64,000 bases of DNA, taken from assembly GCA_037447655.1 (NCBI GenBank), contig JBBHKE010000447.1, positions 236,760 to 300,759 on the forward strand. The letters run 5' to 3'. Numbering within the stretch: position 1 is the stretch's first letter; the number at the start of each line of letters is the position of its first letter. The translations under genes were made by a program, and so were the position numbers. The notes under the pieces are model-generated. The model saw nothing but the letters and a program-made list of their open reading frames with translations, had not been told where the DNA came from and did not search any database. Source of the DNA: Zygnema cylindricum. Its lineage: Eukaryota; Streptophyta; Zygnematophyceae; Zygnematales; Zygnemataceae. Shown piece by piece: positions 40,318-59,113 of this stretch.

Positions 40318-42316
40318 TCTCCTCATAATGTATCCCCTCTTTTTGAGTGAACCGTTTTGCTACCAATCGAGCCTTATATCTTTCAATGGTAATATCAGGG
40401 TTCAATTTTAGTTTAACACCCATTTGCACCCGATCAGTTTTCTGCTTAGAGGACAGTCCGCTAGTTCCCAAGTATTTACTACCATGATGGATGCCATCTC
40501 ATCATTTATGGCTCTAACCCATGTGTCCTTCTTTTAACTGTCCATTGCCTATGAGTATGCCTTAGGCTCATCTGGATAGGACAGCTTAGTTACCTTGTGA
40601 GCCGCGTGTCTTTCCTACAGCCTTTTGCTGCTCCTTTGTCCTCCTTTAAAGTCTGAAGCGGGGATCGAGGGAAGTCACGGGTTCCTCCTCACTGTCTCAT
40701 TAGCTCCCCTATCTGTGAAAGCCAGTTCCATCTCCTCCTCTTCTTTCTCCTGGAAGTGTGAAGGGATATGAGCAGATTCCGGTTTATCTCCTTCATCGTG
40801 GAACACCGCTGAATCTACAATCACTTTTTCAATCATGTCTCTTCTAGGAAGATCGGAGTCTTCCTCACACTCGGACTCAAAGCCGATTTTTATCTTCTTG
40901 GTGTATTTCAAAGGGCAAAATGACTTCCCTTTATCAATGACAACTAGATGCTTTGCCAAAATGATATCTTGTTTAGCTAAGTCATAGACTCTATATCCTT
41001 TGACATCCTCATCACATCCCACAAAGTATCCCAGTTTCCCTTTAGCATCAAGTTTCCATTTCTTCCTATCTGTGTCAAGACTGTAAACTTGAATACCGAA
41101 TACTTTCAGGTGAGAAATAGTTGGTTTCCTTCCAACCCATCACTCATAAGTTGTCATTCGTTTCACAGCTGAGGTAATGACTCTATTCTTGATGTAGTTA
41201 GCACAATTTATGGCCTCAGCCCAAAACCTTTTTTCCTATCCTTTTGTCGCCCAACATACTACATATGATATCTCGTAGAAACCTGGTTCAACCTCTCAGC
41301 TACCCCATTTTGTTCTGGTTTATAAGGTACAGTTTTTTTATGCTTAACTCCCTCATCCCTTAGATATTCCTCAAACTGGTTAGAGGTATATTGTCCCCCA
41401 TTGTCACTCCTTATTCTCTTAATGGGGGGTCCATGCAACTTCTCACTTCAAGCTTTATATTCTCTGAAGTAAATTGGTGCTTCAAACTTTGTTTTTAGGA
41501 AGTAGACTCTGATGAATCTGGACCAGTCATGAGTTATAGTCATCATGAACCTCCTACCTCCTACCGAAGGTACTTTTGCTGGTCCCCAAATATATGTGTG
41601 GACCATATCTAGTAATTTCTCACCTTTATATGTGGCACTTTTGGGAAATGGAAGTTTATGAGCCTTACCTTGGGCACAACCACTGCAATCATCCACCATT
41701 TTGTTATCCCCAAACTGAATGCCTTTTACTACACCAAGCTTCCTCATTTCCCTTAGCCTATCAAAGTGCACATGCCCCAACCGCTTATGTTTAATCATCA
41801 AGTATGGTACACCAACATAGTAAGAATTCTTCTTTTCATTACTTAGGTTAAGCCTAAACATTCCTTGGCTACCCTTATCTAAAGTGAAGTAGACATCATC
41901 TCCATAATTAGTTGTAAAGACTCCCTGTCTAGTGAATGTATCAAACCTTTTATCATCTAATACAGAATTAAAGACAAGATTTTTGGTCAGTTGAGGGATA
42001 TAAAGTACATCTGAGAAAGTGAGTATGGAAGTCTTACCCTTTACTAAGACTTTTATATCTAACGATCAAACTAGATATGTACTACTACTCTCCCATCTGC
42101 GTACTTTATCTCTTCAGTGGGGATCTTTCTTAGTTTGGTGAAGAGGTGACTGTCAGCACACATATGCATGGATGCACGTGAATCGATGATCCATCCTTCC
42201 TGTGGAGGTTCCCGAATGGCTCTAAGAGCACATTTATGTTTTCAAGGAATCTCATTCTCCTCCAGATACTCGTAAGGAGAAGCTCTTCATCCTCCTCCTC
42301 AAAGGACTCATCCGAG
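40318..42316 (-). pseudogene. Copia-C3 gag end and pol 5' half
   Basis: Minus strand, in protein order: acidic Gag tail (E-S-F-E-E-E-D-E-E-L-L, near 42300), protease region (about 42080-42180), pre-integrase zinc-binding part (HKRLGHVHFDRL ... CSGCAQGK, 41448-41861), integrase with HTYIWGP (41590) and broken core, the V-F-G-I-Q-V-Y part near 41090, the acidic linker (40675-41022), and the RT start to 40318. It joins 21016 across the Copia-E insertion. Its 5' end abuts the oppositely oriented Copia-C4 at about 42316. Confidence 0.8.
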
Positions 42317-42967
42317 TACAAGAAATGGATGACAATTTGTAGAAGTGGAACACAATGGTCCGGATGATTCTTGTGCAAGAGAACACTATGGAGATTCGGA
42401 AAAGAGGAAAGAGCGTTCAAGCTCTAGCCGACAGAACGGACTGATGCGCGAAAGATTCAAGGAAGTCATACATCAAATTCAAGGGAGAGAAAGATCAAAT
42501 TGGATGACCGAGGTCTCTAAAGGGCCTTTGTCATTTCTGAAAAAAAGTCGAGACAGTTCAAAGCTGGTTGCACCAAGCTATCGGAGCTGAGGCTCCAAGA
42601 AAACCGTGGAGGAGGTTATTCGAAGGGAAAAAAGAAGGCACTTGTGGTCACACAAGTAAAAAGGGAGACCGAGGAGGATGAGTCCTCTGAGGAGGAGGAT
42701 GGAGAGCTTCTTGATGAGAATTTGGAAGAGAAAGAGATTCTTCAAAAACAAAAGTGTGCTCTCGGAGCCATCCGGGGAACCTCCACACGAAAGATGGATC
42801 ATCAATTCAGGTGCATCCATACATATGTGTCGTGACAGCCACCTCTTCACCAAGCTAAGAAAGATCCCCACTGAAGAGATAAAGTACCCTGATGGGAGAG
42901 TAGTTACTATATATCTAGTTCGATCGTTAGAAGTAAAAGTCTTAGTAAAGGGTAAGACTTCCATACT
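42317..42967 (+). pseudogene. Copia-C4 gag end and protease start
   Basis: Fragments in shifting frames: W-N-T-M-V-R-M-I-L-V-Q-E-N-T (about 42345-42385), a degraded zinc-knuckle region near 42530, the acidic tail E-S-S-E-E-E-D-G-E-L (about 42680), the protease site N-S-G-A-S (Asp to Asn, about 42808) and R-D-S-H-L-F-T-K-L-R-K-I-P-T. The target ATACT (42963-42967) ends it. The reading continues after the miniature element at 43770. Confidence 0.75.
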
Positions 42968-43196
42968 TGTTGGATTGGCACGTGAAGCCGGTCCAATACG
43001 GGGTAGAATATGGAAATATCCATACTCGAGCCGCCCGTAATAAATGGGTACGGACCCGCCAGTCTCAACATCGAGCTGGTGGCACAGTGGTAGTGCGTTC
43101 GCAGCTGAAGTGAAAGGTCCCAGGTTCGAACCCTGGCCGGCTCAATTTTCCCAAGTGTGGGACATGCCGAATCCCGGATTTCTAGGAAATCTAACA
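42968..43196 (+). repeat. Miniature element LTR 1
   Basis: 229 bp, TGTTGGATTGG ... ATCTAACA. The tRNA-like part occupies positions 106-176 of the LTR. Confidence 0.9.
43073..43143 (+). tRNA. tRNA-like sequence inside miniature element LTR 1
   Basis: 71 nt that fold as a cloverleaf. The acceptor stem is GAGCTGG/CCGGCTC, followed by discriminator A (43144). The D-stem is GCAC/GTGC, the anticodon stem TTCGC/GTGAA, the loop AGCTGAA, and the T-arm CCAGG-TTCGAAC-CCTGG. A and B boxes of a Pol III promoter (TGGCACAGTGGTAG, GGTTCGAACCC) are present. Position 33 is G rather than the near-universal U, so decoding function is doubtful. An anticodon CUG would be read if the loop is taken at face value. 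Probably a promoter module of the element. Confidence 0.6.
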
Positions 43197-43253
43197 TGGT
43201 ATCGGAGCCAGCGGGATTGCGGATGGTTTGACCGGCTTTCCCGTGAGGGGGGG
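43197..43253 (+). other. Miniature element internal region 1 (primer site and polypurine tract)
   Basis: 57 bp: primer-binding site TGGTATCGGAGCCAG (43197-43211) and polypurine tract GAGGGGGGG (43245-43253). No coding capacity. Confidence 0.85.
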
Positions 43254-43482
43254 TGTTGGATTGGCACGTGAAGCCGGTCCAATACGGGGTAGAATATGGA
43301 AATATCCATACTCGAGCCGCCCGTAATAAATGGGTACGGACCCGCCAGTCTCAACATCGAGCTGGTGGCACAGTGGTAGTGCGTTCGCAGCTGAAGTGAA
43401 AGGTCCCAGGTTCGAACCCTGGCCGGCTCAATTTTCCCAAGTGTGGGACATGCCGAATCCCGGATTTCTAGGAAATCTAACA
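43254..43482 (+). repeat. Miniature element LTR 2
   Basis: 229 bp, same sequence as LTR 1 by eye. Shared by both units of the tandem, as expected from LTR-LTR recombination or a two-copy cDNA. Confidence 0.9.
43359..43429 (+). tRNA. tRNA-like sequence inside miniature element LTR 2
   Basis: Same 71-nt cloverleaf as at 43073, 286 bp downstream. Confidence 0.6.
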
Positions 43483-43539
43483 TGGTATCGGAGCCAGCGG
43501 GATTGCGGATGGTTTGACCGGCTTTCCCGTGAGGGGGGG

Positions 43540-43769
43540 TGTTGGATTGGCACGTGAAGCCGGTCCAATACGGGGTAGAATATGGAAATATCCATACTCG
43601 AGCCGCCCGTAATAAATGGGTACGGACCCGCCAGTCTCAACATCGAGCTGGTGGCACAGTGGTAGTGCGTTCGCAGCTGAAGTGAAAGGTCCCAGGTTCG
43701 AACCCTGGGCGGCTCAATTTTCCCAAGTGTGGGACATGCCGAATCCCCGGATTTCTAGGAAATCTAACA
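43540..43769 (+). repeat. Miniature element LTR 3
   Basis: 230 bp. It differs from LTR 1 and 2 by CCTGGGCGG for CCTGGCCGG (in the acceptor stem) and by one extra C in GAATCCCCGG. Followed by the target duplicate ATACT. Confidence 0.9.
43645..43715 (+). tRNA. tRNA-like sequence inside miniature element LTR 3
   Basis: Same cloverleaf, but the first 3'-side acceptor base is G instead of C, which breaks the 7th acceptor pair. Evidence of decay or relaxed constraint. Confidence 0.5.
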
Positions 43770-45497
43770 ATACTCACTTTCTCAGATGTACTTTATATCT
43801 CTCAGCTGAGGAAAAATCTTGTCTTTCATTCTGTATAGTTTGATAAAAGGTTTGATACATTCACTAGAAAAGGAGTCTTTACAGCTAAGTATAGAGATGA
43901 AGTCTACTTCAGTGGAGATAAGGGTAGCCAAGGAATGTTTAGGCTTAACCTGAGTAATGAAAAGAAGGATGCTGACTATAATGGTGTCCCAAACTTGATG
44001 ATTAGGCATAAGCGGTTGGGGCATGTGCACTTTGATAGGCTGAGGAAAATGAGGAAGCTTGGTGTAGCAGAATGCATTAAGTTTGGGGATAATGAACTGG
44101 TGGATGATTGTAGTGGTTGTGCCCAAGGTAAGGCTCACAAACTTGCATTTCCCAAAAGTGCCACATATAAAGGCAAGAAATTACTAGATATGGTCCACAC
44201 ATATATTTGGGGACCAGCAAAAGTACCTTCGTTATGATGTAGGAGGTTCATGATGACTATAACTCATGACTGGTCCAGATACTTTAGAGTCTACTTCCAA
44301 AAACAAAGTTTGAAGCAACAATTTACTTAAAAGAATATAAAGCTTAGAGTGAGAAGTTGCATGGAACCCCCATTAAGAGAATAAGGAGTGACAATGGGGG
44401 ACAATATACCTCTAACCAGTTTGAGGAATATCTAAGGGATGAGGGAGTTAAGCATCAGAAAATTGTACCTTATAATCTAGAAAGAAATGGGGTAGCTGAG
44501 AGGTTGAACCGGTTTTCTAGGAGATATCATATGTAGTATGTTGGGCGACAAAATGATAGGAAAAAAGGTTTTGGGCTGAGGCCATAAACAATGCTAACTA
44601 TATCAAGAATAGAGTCCTTACCTCAGCTATGAAAGGAATGACAACTTATGAGTGATGGGTTGGAAGGAAACCTACTATTTCTCACCTGAAAGTATTCGGT
44701 TATCAAGTTTACAGTCTTGACACAGATAGGAAGAACTGGAAACTAGATGATAAAGGGAAACTGGGATACTTTGTGGGATGTGATGAGGATGTCAAGGGAT
44801 ATAGAGTCTATGACTTAGCTAAACAAGATATCATTTTGGTAGAGCATCTAGTTGTCATTGATAAAGGGAAGTCATTTTGCCCTTTTTAAATACACCAATA
44901 AGATAAAAATCAGCTTTGAGTCCGAGTGTGAGGAAGACTCCAATCTTCCTAGAAGAGACATGAGTGAAAAAGTGATTGCAGAATCAGCGGAGATCCACGA
45001 TGAAGGAGATAAACCGGATCTGCTCATATCCCTACACACTTCCAGGAGAAAGAAGAGGAGAAGATGGAACTGACTTTCATGGATAGGGGAGCCGATGAGA
45101 CAGTGAGAGGACCCGAGACTTCCCTACATCCCATCTTGGGACTTGCTCAGTCCACTATGGAGGCTCAGTACATGGCCTCTTATTCTGCTGTAAAAGAATT
45201 GATGTGAGTTAAGTCTTTGCTAGAAGAATTGGGGTACATGAACAAAGGGGTGCATGAAGTCTTCTGTGATAATCAGGCTGGAATTGCAATTGCAACCAAT
45301 CCAAAACATCATTTCAAAGCTAAACACATGGACATAAGGTTGAGTTTTGTGAGGGAAAAAGTGGAAAACAAAATTGTGAATCTTGTGTATAAACCAAATG
45401 GAGAAATTATTGCTGAAATGATGACCAAACATGTGCCCTCACCGAAATTGAATTATTGTAGAGAGATGTATGGACTAAAAGAAAAGTTTAAATAAGA
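43770..45497 (+). pseudogene. Copia-C4 pol (RT deleted)
   Basis: The protease end follows the miniature element. The pre-integrase part is open at 43935-44237 (HKRLGHVHFDRL ... CSGCAQGK, HTYIWGPAKVPS). Integrase is broken by stops (44240-44700). The linker lies at 44852-45073. A deletion near 45141 then joins the linker to RNase H (45150-45497: STMEA-Q-YMAS, CDNQAGIAIATNPKH, ending K-H-V-P-S-P-K-L-N-Y). The whole RT catalytic region is absent. Confidence 0.8.
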
Positions 45498-50879: not shown

Positions 50880-51012
50880 GTGACAGCCTCTCACCGTCAC
50901 GCTGTGTTCCATGTATAGCCGTTCCGTTTTGACTTCTTCCGCGTCCATCGTCACAACTCTCAACATTCAAACTCCCGCCTCCTAGCCATTATCTCCCGCC
51001 TCGTTCTTACTG

Positions 51013-51028
51013 GGCGCCACGTGGCGCC
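51013..51028. promoter_or_regulatory. 16-bp palindrome with G-box core next to the formin ATG
   Basis: GGCGCCACGTGGCGCC is a perfect palindrome centred on CACGTG and abuts the ATG at 51029. The same GCCACGTGGCGCC string occurs in the E-type LTRs (about 28845 and 39838). It may be a bZIP/bHLH site in the 5' leader. Confidence 0.4.
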
Positions 51029-54000
51029 ATGTTCTCTCGCAGTCGAATCAGCGCCGCTGCGCGCGAAGAGGAGGCCGTCGCCGCCATCGAGCGCAGGCTT
51101 GGCTCCGCCTCCATTTTCGCTCAATCTATCCAGGCCGATTCTCCTCTCTTCACCTCCTTCCCTCGGGCCACCTCTGGAGACCGTTTCGGTCGGCGACGAG
51201 TAGCTTCTGTAGAAGTCGCCGAAGCCAGCGCGAATGCCGCCGCGATTTCCGCATCATTGTCCGATTTAAAGTCGGAGGTGGAACTCAACGAAGCTCGCGC
51301 CGATGCCATTGTCGGGACGTTCCTTCTGAATGGACTCCAGCCTCCTCGTCACCGTCGTCGACTTCGATATGGAAAGGCTAAGGGTCACAACATCAATAGT
51401 AGCAAAAGCACTAGCAACAGTAATAACAGTAAGAGTAATGTCAGAAACAACAGCAGTGTTGTTAAACATGTTACTGGCAGCAATAACAACGGAACTATTG
51501 CAGGAGGGGAATCTCTCCGCATCACTCTTCCCTCAAAGCCTTTGCCATGGCAGCAAAGTTCCAACGGTTCCGAAAATGCTTCCACTCCTCTCAGTCGGAG
51601 AACACCTCCGGAAACCATGGCCGGATCTCACCAGCTGTCTCTCATGGCGCCTATTCCGTCCGACTGGACACAGTCGGATACAGGGACCGAATTTGCAACG
51701 AAGGCTTCCATTCCGTGTGATTGGAGTGATACGGGAGGAGATCATGGGAGGGTAATTAGCAGGAGAACCGTACAGGAAGGTAGCAGAGAAGTAAGATCAG
51801 CTAGCGACCGACTTATGGTGGAATTAGGTCAAGCAGGACCTTTGGGCAGTCCGAAAGCCTCAGGCGGTTGGGACTCAGGGTTAGGGTTAAGCAGAGGTCG
51901 TGGAGGAGGGGGAGTAGTAGGTGTTGGGGCAGGGGCAGGGGCAGGGGCAGGGGCTGGGGGAGGGGTAGGGGTAGGAGGAGGGCCTCGTTTGGAACGTAGT
52001 ATTTCTAAGGGCAGGTCTTTATTTCGGACGAGTTCAACACCGGCAGATTTGATAGAGGCCCTTAATGAGCTCAGCCCCTCTCCCTCTGAACAGTTACCAT
52101 TCTACTCAAAGACCCCTCCACCTAGGGATAGAGGGGGAGGGATGAGAGAAGTAGAGGCCGGGGATGGGATGAACGGAGAAATAGACAGGGAATCTGGAGG
52201 AGATGGTAGTGATAAAGGGATTGTGAGGATAAGTTCTGGGAAGTCTTTCGCTCGGTCTAATTCGGGAGGGTCAGGGAGGAGTGGTTCTGGAAGTGGGACT
52301 GGTTTGGTTTGGAAATCGAAAACAGACGACGAGGAGGAGGAGGACGTGGCGAAGGTGTTAGTCACTGAGGAAAAACAGGTTCCATCAAAGGCAGATTGGG
52401 CGAGACAAGGGTCAGGAAGGAGTCTTAGGGGATCGCTTGCTAGGTCAGGGAGAATTGACCGCCGGGCAAAAGAAGCGGTGGATAATGCCGATTCTGAGTT
52501 GGGTTTAGAGCAAAAAGAAGATCAAAATGTGGAATTAACGCCTCCGACCAAAAAGTGGACTGTGAATATGTCAAAGAATGTTTTTAGAGGCAATTGGTCC
52601 CCACAACTTGTCCAAAGTAACTCTACTCTTGGAGCCTATAGGCCTCCAACCGTGGACTCCGAGCCTGTGTCAGGAACTCCCAAAGTTACTCCTGGAAAAG
52701 TCGGTGTCCTTCCTTCCTCTCCTGCTGTGGGAGTAGTATGGGGTACGCCAGCTAGTAAGGATGACCCTCCTGTACCTTTCCTCACAGCTTTGTCAACTTC
52801 TGGTGAGACGATAAGATCCACAGTCAGCATAGGAGTCCCTGTGGCTACTGGCCTTCCCTCTACTCCTTTCCGTGGGAGTCCAAGAAAACTTTCGTTGGCA
52901 GAGGGCGAGTGTGTTGTGGAGCCCACTAAAAGTGTGAAAGATGTGTTAAAAAGTCTCGAATATGGGGCAGAAAGGAATTTTAAGAACTCCGGTGTAAAAG
53001 AGGAGAAGGGATTGTTGAGTGGTCAAACGACAGTTGTAAGCAGTAAAGTTATCGATGCAGCATTTGGATATATGACAAAAGCCGGAGCAGCAAGTCAGCA
53101 AAGAAATGTGGTAGGGATTGGTGCAAGTGAGCAGGAAGAAGCCCATATAGAAGAATCACAACAGAGCCTCGGACCAGGATTACCGCGGACATTATATGTG
53201 GGTCACCTGAATTCTGTTGATGTAGAAGATAATGGTAGAGGAGGGGAGTTTGGAGAGGTGTTGGAGGGAGGTGCCGAGTTTTTTGTGATGGGCTCAGAAA
53301 GAAGGGATCCTCCAGACGTATTTGTAGATGGTGGAGTGCCCAAAGAACAGGTTATTAACAAAGTTGCGAAGTGGTTAACGGATGTGGGAGATGACTCGGC
53401 AGTGAGTGAAGTTGACAGTCATGCTTCTTCTCAACCACAATCGGATCAAATGTCAGAATGTGGAGGAGAGTCTATGGCTGGCTCGATAGGGGAAGGCATT
53501 AGACGGACGTCCACGCCTCCCTCGACTTATAACAGTTTACCTTTTGTCAACACTTCTCGGAGGCAAAGTTTAGAGCCCTCAGGTCGAGCGCCTTTACCGA
53601 CAAACCCGAGAGGTGCAGGAGAGAGAGAAGGGATGAGTAGCTCACATAGGCCGAGGGTCGTATTCCCTTTACCTGATTTCCAGAAGGTTTCTGGTAGTGG
53701 TGGAAGAAGTAAGGAGGAATTGGAGAGGAATCGACGATTAGATGCGGCTCGGGAAAGAAAACTTCGAAACCCCAAACCGGTATCGATTCGAGAAGGAGAC
53801 GATATGATAACTGTAGTCGGGAGTGGTCTTTTTTCGATTGAGCTTACCAAACGTCCTCTAAGGAAAGGAGACAATACTCTAAGCAATAGTGGGAGCTCAG
53901 GAGCGATAAGGTCGAGTGGTCTTATGGGAACAGATACGAGGAAAGATAGGGAAACTACAACCTCTGGTAGTCCTGGTCATCAACGCAGCAAAAGTCTAGA

Positions 54001-54539
54001 ACTAGAGCCACCTATAGAGTCTCTCTCTCCCCCTCCTCCCATCCCATCTCACTCACCGAAGTTGCCTACGATTTCTGGGCAAAAAAATGTAACACTTGTC
54101 CATTTTTCAGACTCACCTGCCCTTAGTTCCATTTCATTCGCTGATGGGCTGGGCTTCATTCCATTCCCTCTCCACGCCGTTGGAGGGCGCTCTCCCTAAA
54201 ATTGAAACCTCACACGCGTTAAGTATACCTGGATATGGTCCTGTCCCTCCCCCTCCTCCCCCTCCTCTACCTCCAACCACTATCCTGACCCATGTCCCCC
54301 TCCCCTTCCTCCCCTCCCCCTCCCTTCCTGGCCCCTCCTCCTCTTTTGTCCTCCTCCTTTTAATGATTTTCACTCCCCCCCCATCTCGAATTATCCCCGA
54401 TTTCCATCGGATTCCTCCCCCCTCCTGGGATTCGCCCTCCTCCACCTCCCCCGGGTGGTAGAGTTCCCCCTCCTCCGGGACCCGGGCAAAAGGGAAGCCT
54501 ACCGTCCAAATTTGCCGGCACTATTTGGGATACAGCTTT
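51029..54539 (+). CDS. Formin, exon 1 (long N-terminus plus FH1)
   Basis: Formins nucleate and elongate actin filaments. The FH1 region recruits profilin-actin and the FH2 dimer caps the barbed end. This exon opens at the first ATG after an upstream region without one and stays open for 1056 codons to 54199. It is Ser/Gly-rich and apparently disordered, with a Gly-Ala-Val run at about residues 290-324. There is no signal peptide, membrane segment or PTEN-like domain, so it fits neither class I nor class II plant formins by its N-terminus. FH1 follows ([12 protein letters not shown] near 54240; PPPPPPGGRVPPPPGPG near 54436). Reaching it needs two frame changes, each explained by one extra C (CCC at 54194-54196; C6 at 54417-54422). 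The exon ends at the GTGAGT donor at 54540. Confidence 0.75.
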
Positions 54540-57765: not shown

Positions 57766-59113
57766 GTCTGTCGCACGTCTCCTCTATCCCTCTATTCCCT
57801 CCTCCCCACATTTTCTGCCCCTTCCTCCTTTCCGACTCAAGTTCAACCTCCAGGAAATCACAGCTTCAACCTTTCCCTCTCTCTCCCTCTCCTCTCCCTC
57901 TCCCTCTCCCTCCTTGTCCTCACCCTTCCTCGTCCTCACCCTTTCCCTCTCCCTCTCCCTCTCCCTCCCCCTCTCCCTCTCCCTCTCCCTCTCCCTCTCC
58001 CTCTCCCTTTCCCTCTCCCTCTCCCACTCCCTCTCCCTCTCCCTCTCCCTCTCCCTCTCCCTCTCCCTCTCCCTCTCCCTCTCCCTCTCCCTCTCCCTCT
58101 CCCTCTCCCTCTCCCTCTCCCTCCCCCTACCCCTCTCCCTCTCCCTCTCCCTCTCCCTCTCCCTCTCCCTCTCCCTCTCCCTCTCCCTCTCCCTCTCCCT
58201 CTCCCTCTCCCTCCCTCTCCCTCCCCCTACCCCTCTCCCTCTCCCTCTCCCTCTCCCTCTCCCTCTCCCTCTCCCTCTCCCTCCCCCTCCCTCTCCCTCT
58301 CCCTCTCCCTCTCCCTCTCCCTCTCCCTCTCCCTCTCCCTCTCCCTCTCCCTCTCCCTCTCCCTCTCCCTCTCCCTCTCCCTCTCCCTCTCCCTCTCCCT
58401 CTCCCTCTCCCTCTCCCTCTCCCTCTCCCTCTCCCTCTCCCTCTCCCTCTCCCTCTCCCTCTCCCTCTCCCTCTCCCTCTCCCTCTCCCTCTCCCTCTCC
58501 CTCTCCCTCTCCCTCTCCCTCTCCCTCTCCCTCTCCCTCTCCCTCTCCCTCTCCCTCTCCCTCTCCCTCTCCCTCCCCCTCTCCCTCCCCCTCCCCCTCC
58601 CCCTCCCCCTCCCCCTCTCCCTCCCCCTCCCCCTCCCCCTCCCCCTCCCCCTCCCCCTCCCCCTCCCCCTCCCCCTCCCCCTCCCCCTCCCCCTCCCCCT
58701 CCCCCTCCACCTCCATAGTTGTTTCGATAACCATCTCTGTTTAGTTTGCTTAAAATAATTGGTGACAGACTCCTATCTCCAATCAGGTAATTCATTGTTT
58801 TCTTCATTCTGACAGTTTGTTGAGATCTCAAAGCTACTCTTTGAAGTTTTTTACTGTTCTTCTGTTAGTGTCGTATTTCGTTTTATTTTTCTTCAAAATT
58901 GTAATCGGATGGTTTTTACTGTTATCAATTTAATTAGTGTTGTATTTCGTAGAATTGAACTTCAGATCTGTTGTTGTGTGTGTTTTACTGTTATTGATTT
59001 TCTAGTGTTGTATTTCGCATTGTTCTCATTTTTTTTTATCACATAAATGGGAAAAAGATATTCTCCATCATATCTTGTTTTGTCTGTTATCTTTGATTGT
59101 TATTTTTCTTCAG
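57766..59113 (+). other. Formin intron 4, dominated by a pyrimidine repeat
   Basis: 1348 bp, with the CTCCCT repeat at 57871-58714 and T-rich sequence after it. The acceptor is TTCTTCAG. Confidence 0.75.
57871..58714. repeat. CTCCCT/CCCCCT pyrimidine repeat (~840 bp)
   Basis: Nearly pure pyrimidine strand. Hexamer CTCCCT dominates to about 58570, then CCCCCT to about 58710. Two similar interruptions (CCCCCTACCCCT near 58125 and 58225) lie about 100 bp apart and suggest an internal duplication. All reading frames are open, producing spurious Ser-Pro, Leu-Pro, Gly-Glu and Gly-Arg repeats. Such tracts can form triplex (H-) DNA. Confidence 0.95.

Follow-up and report, generated by a model that had tools for sequence, protein, structure and literature searches.

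A tandem miniature retrotransposon of probable Helenus type, with a tRNA-like module in each long terminal repeat, in Zygnema cylindricum

This study concerns a short repeated element in a 64,000-nucleotide stretch of the Zygnema cylindricum genome (contig JBBHKE010000447.1), referred to below as the window. At 42963-43774 the window reads ATACT, LTR1, INT1, LTR2, INT2, LTR3, ATACT, where the three long terminal repeats (LTRs) and two internal regions (INT) measure 229, 57, 229, 57 and 230 bp and form a head-to-tail repeat with a period of 286 bp. LTR1 and LTR2 (229 bp) are identical, as are INT1 and INT2 (57 bp). LTR3 (230 bp) differs from LTR1 by one substitution, on the 3' side of the acceptor stem of the tRNA-like module, and by one inserted C. 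An earlier note on this sequence described a perfect 286-bp tandem, which is accurate for the first two LTRs and both internal regions and slightly too strong for LTR3. The feature is very probably a tandem copy (L3I2, three LTRs and two interiors) of a terminal-repeat retrotransposon in miniature (TRIM), inserted in a Copia element and belonging to Helenus, the name given by Kojima 2024 (PMC10886601) to TRIMs with tRNA-derived LTR sequence. Such an element would be non-coding and moved in trans, and its module would serve as promoter, terminator and R (repeat) region, not as a tRNA. The features of the locus are listed by position.

42022..42026, minus strand: empty site with a single ATACT and the same flanks, in the inverted Copia paralogue
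42963..42967, no strand: 5' target site duplication ATACT, present once in the empty-site paralogue
42968..43196, plus strand: LTR1, 229 bp, TGTTGG...CTAACA
43039..43045, plus strand: AATAAAT, putatively TATA-like, at -34 from the start of the tRNA-like module of LTR1 and at the same place in LTR2 and LTR3
43073..43144, plus strand: tRNA-like module 1, 72 nt, with 7+4+5+5 stem pairs and loop AGCTGAA with G33
43080..43090, plus strand: A box TGGCACAGTGG, its role as a motif being established knowledge
43123..43133, plus strand: B box GGTTCGAACCC, its role likewise established
43146..43149, plus strand: TTTT directly 3' of module 1, candidate weak RNA polymerase III (Pol III) terminator
43197..43253, plus strand: internal region 1, 57 bp
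43197..43211, plus strand: primer binding site (PBS) TGGTATCGGAGCCAG, complementary with one G:U pair to what we take to be the 3' end of initiator tRNA-Met (iMet)
43245..43253, plus strand: polypurine tract (PPT) GAGGGGGGG, adjoining LTR2
43254..43482, plus strand: LTR2, identical to LTR1
43359..43430, plus strand: tRNA-like module 2
43483..43539, plus strand: internal region 2, identical to region 1 (PBS and PPT)
43540..43769, plus strand: LTR3, 230 bp, two differences from LTR1
43645..43716, plus strand: tRNA-like module 3, with one acceptor-stem pair broken
43770..43774, no strand: 3' target site duplication ATACT
43839..44234, plus strand: reading of the target Copia 3' of the insertion, gag pre-integrase domain (Pfam PF13976)

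The TRIM lies in a degenerate Copia element, a second copy of which is found on the opposite strand of the window. These inverted copies (40688-42213 and 42775-45107) have arms that are ~90-94% complementary; one holds the TRIM and the other supplies the empty site. The earlier note had the element interrupting a Copia reading, and the inverted paralogue bears this out, as it keeps the uninterrupted site with one ATACT. The outer ATACT duplication was likewise found where it had been described, at 42963-42967 and 43770-43774. The basic identification stands: this is an LTR element of the TRIM kind with a tRNA-like module in every LTR and a genuine integration that left a target duplication.

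A tRNA was found by ARAGORN in each of the three window LTRs. Rfam RF00005 also matched all three modules. Modules 1 and 2 scored 53.6 bits each in the whole-window scan, while module 3 was not listed there and scored 44.0 bits in a separate 351-base scan. At gathering threshold Rfam gave only RF00005 in the window, and 5S rRNA-derived sequence was not found. The A and B boxes were located in the modules as first noted; the module measures 72 nt including the discriminator base, not 71 nt. The module alone folds into a cloverleaf, but no better than shuffled sequences (z -0.66). The fold of a 654-nt stretch (z -5.8) was not used because that stretch repeats itself.

The assembly (352.8 Mb, 2689 contigs) was searched for further copies. 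In the first search with the element, which scored 40 out of 985 candidates, 95 matches were obtained. Junctions of LTR and PBS numbered 306 genome-wide when ≤2 mismatches were allowed (control 3). The copies examined came from 38 loci of the first search, 40 loci from 100 listed junction rows, and the window. Among 58 full-ended elements or pieces, 34 carry an exact 5-bp duplication, 4 have one mismatch and 20 have none; arrays with truncated ends were left out of this judgement. One broken composite counted as full-ended (L101) has no duplication. Exact duplications make up 29/38 in the first, best-scoring sample together with the window. The plain form with LTR, interior and LTR (L-i-L) is the commonest, with 48/58 full-ended rows. 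The six clean arrays (three LiLiL including the window, two LiLiLiL and one LiLiLiLiL) have exact outer duplications in 6/6 cases. 193 LTR matches were compared with the module, of which 167 span it whole, 14 span part of it and 12 fall outside. The earlier note had named two outcomes that would speak against its reading, a plain tandem satellite lacking target duplications and a family in which most LTRs lack the tRNA-like part. Instead the copies are dispersed, mostly single L-i-L, with exact duplications in more than half of the full-ended rows and the module in most LTR matches.

This one genome contains three families of the element, which between them have two tRNA types and all share an iMet-type PBS. 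The subfamily of the window, F1A, has an LTR of 229 bp and an interior of 57 bp. In F1B (L079, L100, L104 and others) the part before the module differs partly, with 79% identity to F1A. F3 (L094, L134-L138 and L140) shares the tRNA type of F1; its LTR measures 222 bp in L094 and its interior 66 bp. F2 with its subfamily F2b (L073, L087, L090, L107-L126) carries another tRNA type, with an LTR that measures 246 bp in L090 and an interior of 61 bp. Outside the module the F2 LTR aligns no better than shuffles; the ends, TGTTGG and CTAACA, are alike. Genome-wide there are 557 matches with ≤3 mismatches to a 39-nt core of the module, which by sequence also fits F3 with one mismatch (reversed-pattern control 0), and 241 modules of the F2 type (control 1). 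The exact module pattern occurred 0 times in viral contigs and 0 times in bacterial contigs.

Target duplications are not confined to F1. At L107-L126 a script found exact 5-bp duplications in 8/20 loci, namely in five L-i-L copies, one of which lies in a GA repeat, and in three solo LTRs. Two more can be read at L113 and L124 once the end of the F2b LTR is placed by eye. In F3 exact duplications are found at L134, taking the last LTR base as changed, and at L136, with one mismatch at L137; L135, L138 and L140 show no duplication at the printed ends. The exact iMet-type PBS, ACATGGTATCAGAGCCAGG, occurs at 12 places in the genome (control 1), 4 in loci already sampled and 8 new. At that PBS the new loci hold F3 elements or chimeras of F2 and F3. 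TGGTATCAGAGCCAGG is carried by some F2, F3 and chimeric copies, and the PBS of F1 has one G:U pair.

The chimeras join unlike families. L139 774-1307 (minus-oriented) reads LTR_F2b-PBS-INT_F3-LTR_F3 with AATTG on both sides. Two unlike LTRs within a perfect duplication imply that recombination took place before integration. L122 469-1041 has the same order as L139, in a longer broken array with no clear duplication. L133 870-1192 (minus-oriented) has the reverse order, a truncated LTR_F3-PBS-INT_F2-LTR_F2b. In all three the unlike families are joined exactly at the PBS. Joins at precisely this common site would be expected from second-strand (plus-strand strong-stop) transfer between two molecules packaged together. 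No description of chimeras with unlike LTRs was found among the entries listed from an open-licence library, which was searched little for chimeras specifically.

A linked haplotype (47 deleted, 74G, 78A, often 100T) is found in all compared LTRs of L091, L093, L095, L097 and L099, and in part in L072. In two of the six clean arrays, L014 and L038, one LTR departs from its partners in a linked haplotype of three or four variants. Since that haplotype is seen at other loci, these two arrays contain units from different sources. In the array L023, 59A is common to LTR2 and LTR3, and 144C occurs together with 190A in LTR1 and LTR4; no other compared locus has these variants. A further array, at L068 1-842, is built differently, with a period of ~243 bp and LTRs separated by 17-bp stretches instead of the 57-bp interior.

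The earlier note took the window locus as proof that an LTR-LTR-LTR unit had integrated. This is too strong, as unequal recombination inside one inserted element also leaves a single outer duplication. The window locus cannot separate the two histories, because LTR1 equals LTR2 and LTR3 has only private changes; integration of the array as a unit is possible, not proven. We give almost an even chance to the alternative that an ordinary element was inserted first and that unequal recombination between its LTRs then produced the three-LTR array. The predominance of plain L-i-L copies fits it, as do the private variants shared by LTR pairs in L023, and unequal crossing-over is discussed for Cassandra arrays by Kalendar 2020 (PMC7215508). 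The mixed haplotypes of L014 and L038 stand against it, for recombination within one element cannot yield them without conversion from elsewhere. The window array itself offers no evidence either way.

A scheme that would account for chimeras and arrays together is put forward tentatively, with confidence well short of even. Several Helenus families with different tRNA promoters would share one virus-like particle and one PBS, and the module would act as R by way of a leaky TTTT (T4). Second-strand transfer between families at the PBS would then make unlike-LTR elements such as L139, with the 5' LTR of one family and the PBS, interior and 3' LTR of another, and the same strand jumping would make tandem arrays such as that of the window. 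The main reading, of a Helenus-type TRIM moved in trans, has its own predicted mechanism. Transcription would start at or near the tRNA-like module, as suggested by the A and B boxes and, in F1A, F2 and F3, by a TATA-like site lying 30-34 bp before it. The T4 that follows the module would be a leaky terminator, so that some transcripts run on through the 5' LTR and end in the 3' LTR. In RNA that extends from the 5' LTR module to the 3' LTR T4, the module would be the R that an LTR element requires. Reverse transcription would be primed by tRNA-iMet, with enzymes supplied in trans by an autonomous LTR element; this mover is likely to be of Copia type because of the 5-bp duplication and the iMet-type PBS. 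The chimeras and some of the tandem arrays could result from strand transfers, at the common PBS or in the LTRs, between RNAs or cDNAs packaged together.

Features of the modules that speak for the main reading are a TTTT within ≤7 nt in 147/157 parsed modules, the anticodon stem retained in F1B and the similarity of the module between F1A and F3. The box motifs are TAGCT, TGG and GGTTC in F2, and TGGCA (4 of 5 positions against TRGCY), TGG and GGTTC in F1 and F3. All 21 stem pairs are kept in 104/146 F1A, 1/7 F1B, 1/2 F3 and 0/31 F2 modules, and at least 19 in 140/146, 5/7, 2/2 and 26/31 respectively. The anticodon stem of F1B is CTGAC/GTCAG compared with TTCGC/GTGAA, and two double substitutions and one single one leave all pairs intact. 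F1A and F3 agree at 67/72 positions of the module (93%), whereas the sequence preceding it is 63% identical and the sequence following it 61% (shuffled means 48% and 47%). This difference would fit either constraint or exchange of modules.

A number of results weigh against the reading of the feature as a Helenus-type TRIM moved in trans with a working promoter module. Exact duplications fell to 5/20 full-ended copies in the junction-chosen, less biased sample, which therefore contains more old or disturbed copies. No autonomous partner was found: 0/8 newly sampled exact-PBS loci are autonomous at that PBS. The Copia elements of the window lack an iMet-type PBS, and both PBS matches in the window belong to the TRIM itself. 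In F3 there is no T4 within ≤8 nt of the module in 2/2 parsed cases; among the printed LTR ends of F3 type, TTTT lies slightly further from the module in 2/7 (L133, L137). In 90 mostly young LTRs the per-site difference is 0.0134 in the module, 0.0109 before it, 0.0085 after it and 0.0212 in the A box alone. The module is as variable as the LTR around it, which gives no hint of selection within copies. Between F1A and F1B the module is no more conserved than the sequence that follows it (89% compared with 92%). Finally, the TATA-like site would serve RNA polymerase II (Pol II) equally.

This last point underlies a second alternative, which we consider unlikely: Pol II would transcribe the TRIM by way of the TATA-like site 30-34 bp before the module, and the tRNA-like part would be a passenger or only an R or packaging structure. 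In the printed upstream sequences the TATA-like 7-mer stands at -34 in 74/80 F1A and 8/8 F2, and at -30 in 2/2 F3, and the A box is not conserved within copies above the rest of the LTR. In F1B and F2b, however, the 7-mer is present in just 1/5 and 0/7 printed upstream sequences, and families that differ in tRNA type all retain the A and B boxes. Upstream TATA and CAA elements help plant tRNA genes, and a TATA near -30 also helps plant Pol III tRNA genes. CAA is found at -7 from the module in 68/80 printed upstream sequences of F1A. AATAAAT at 43039..43045 could alternatively have a role as a poly(A)-type signal. For the Pol II alternative there is also a parallel, since Cassandra-like TRIMs without a 5S promoter have TATA boxes (PMC10853983).

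Could the modules be real tRNA genes, multiplied by hitch-hiking and supplying tRNA-Gln? Complete stems in most F1A modules would suit this idea, and ARAGORN assigns tRNA-Gln to most of the modules in the window and in L009-L046. Yet U33 is present in 0/157 parsed modules, position 33 being mostly G in F1 and F3 and C in F2. The earlier note had argued from G33 (loop AGCTGAA) against a working tRNA, and the wider sample upholds the argument: as position 33 is never T, the modules are unlikely to work as tRNAs. Host tRNA-Gln-TTG is also less similar to the module (43-46 identical positions of 72) than Arg-CCT (51) or Cys (50), in a sample without tRNA-Gln-CTG. We therefore regard a hitch-hiking tRNA gene as very improbable, and reject a working tRNA on the sequence of the anticodon loop. 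Derivation from a known host tRNA was also considered and set aside, the best match reaching only 51/72 positions in a sample that lacks iMet and most isotypes. The host tRNAs came from 20 loci out of 63 scored among 24,620 first-look candidates. Because of the ARAGORN calls, tRNA-gene annotation is likely inflated in this genome. Separately, L064 and L066 hold tRNA-Asn-like sequences that presumably resemble plastid and bacterial types and may be organelle insertions or contamination.

The head-to-tail array might suggest a plain satellite, or a cluster of tRNA genes, that repeats every 286 bp. This reading can scarcely be credited in view of the outer duplication, the empty site, the PBS and PPT, the hundreds of dispersed matches and the single L-i-L form of most examined copies; dispersed copies, target duplications and the empty site equally rule out an artefact.

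Elsewhere in the window there is a long (CTCCCT)n tract of 139 copies (57877-58707) and an open frame of 1088 aa, stop to stop (50933-54199). The 1056-aa part of this frame from 51029 has no Pfam match, and none of 8000 scored protein-search candidates passed E 0.001. In the assembly, contigs C519 and C2590 carry large clusters of chlorophyll a/b-binding (Lhc) genes in both orientations. These Lhc genes point to a green plant, while rbcL gave 0 matches. Two Lhc genes were compared with protein structures, and each was matched best by 9vfj_2, a chain that contains the domain twice. For one Lhcb exon the runners-up were 8htu and 7xqp, from a moss, narrowly ahead of a pea chain (337.8 and 337.5 bits compared with 328.7). 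The second gene came closest, after 9vfj_2, to chains of Lhcb3 type, which would suggest a land plant.

The earlier note gave Cassandra as the known precedent. Cassandra is a related case, but it is not the sole one, as Kojima described in 2024 the Helenus TRIMs, whose LTRs contain sequence derived from tRNA (PMC10886601). Helenus elements have a PBS and a PPT, with 5-bp duplications in fungi and plants; the module is not complementary to the PBS, and for many families tRNAscan-SE gives disagreeing isotypes. Their tRNA predictions are mostly non-functional, Pol III use is unproven, and tandem arrays were noted for LTR-11_DR (PMC10886601). The only plant with Helenus in that study is Selaginella moellendorffii (Helenus-1_SMo), with an LTR of 120 bp and an internal region of 85 bp. 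The Zygnema elements share with Helenus the TRIM size, a tRNA-derived sequence with A and B boxes in each LTR, the PBS, the PPT, the 5-bp duplication and a tRNA that is probably non-functional. Some Helenus families also use the iMet 3' end, and LTR-11_DR also forms tandem arrays. Here, in contrast, LTR and interior measure 229/57, 246/61 and 222/66 bp compared with 120/85 in Selaginella, and two tRNA types and interfamily chimeras are found in one genome. Most families of Kojima have TRGCY and YGG in box A and GGTTC in box B; F1 has TGGCA in place of TRGCY. Because the description of Kojima applies in the features compared, the window element and its kin form a new set of Helenus families. 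Besides those of Kojima, no TRIM with a tRNA-like LTR was found in the titles and abstract openings listed from the open-licence library.

Other known elements resemble the array in part. According to Kalendar 2020 (PMC7215508), Cassandra likewise has a small-RNA gene with an internal Pol III promoter in its LTR, a terminator and short tandem arrays of about three LTRs; its gene is 5S rRNA rather than tRNA, and its Pol III promoter and terminators are described as conserved. Tandem TRIMs (TA-TRIMs) were described by Gao 2016 (PMC4717578) as 129 subfamilies in 35/43 plant genomes. They include L3I2 arrays as in the window and also L5I4, but the main text of that paper makes no mention of tRNA. 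Kojima (PMC10886601) proposes tRNA-derived short interspersed elements (SINE2) as the source of the Helenus module. SINE2 elements also have a tRNA head with A and B boxes, whereas the elements described here have LTRs, a PBS, a PPT and a 5-bp duplication.

In plants Helenus had been reported from Selaginella, as a single family; these results add a genome that carries hundreds of copies, in three families and with two tRNA types. Through the modules, the way in which promoter, terminator and R coincide can be compared in an element with no coding capacity. An element whose two LTRs are unlike and whose target duplication is perfect preserves a natural record of recombination in the course of reverse transcription, and such elements make the origin of tandem TRIM arrays testable.

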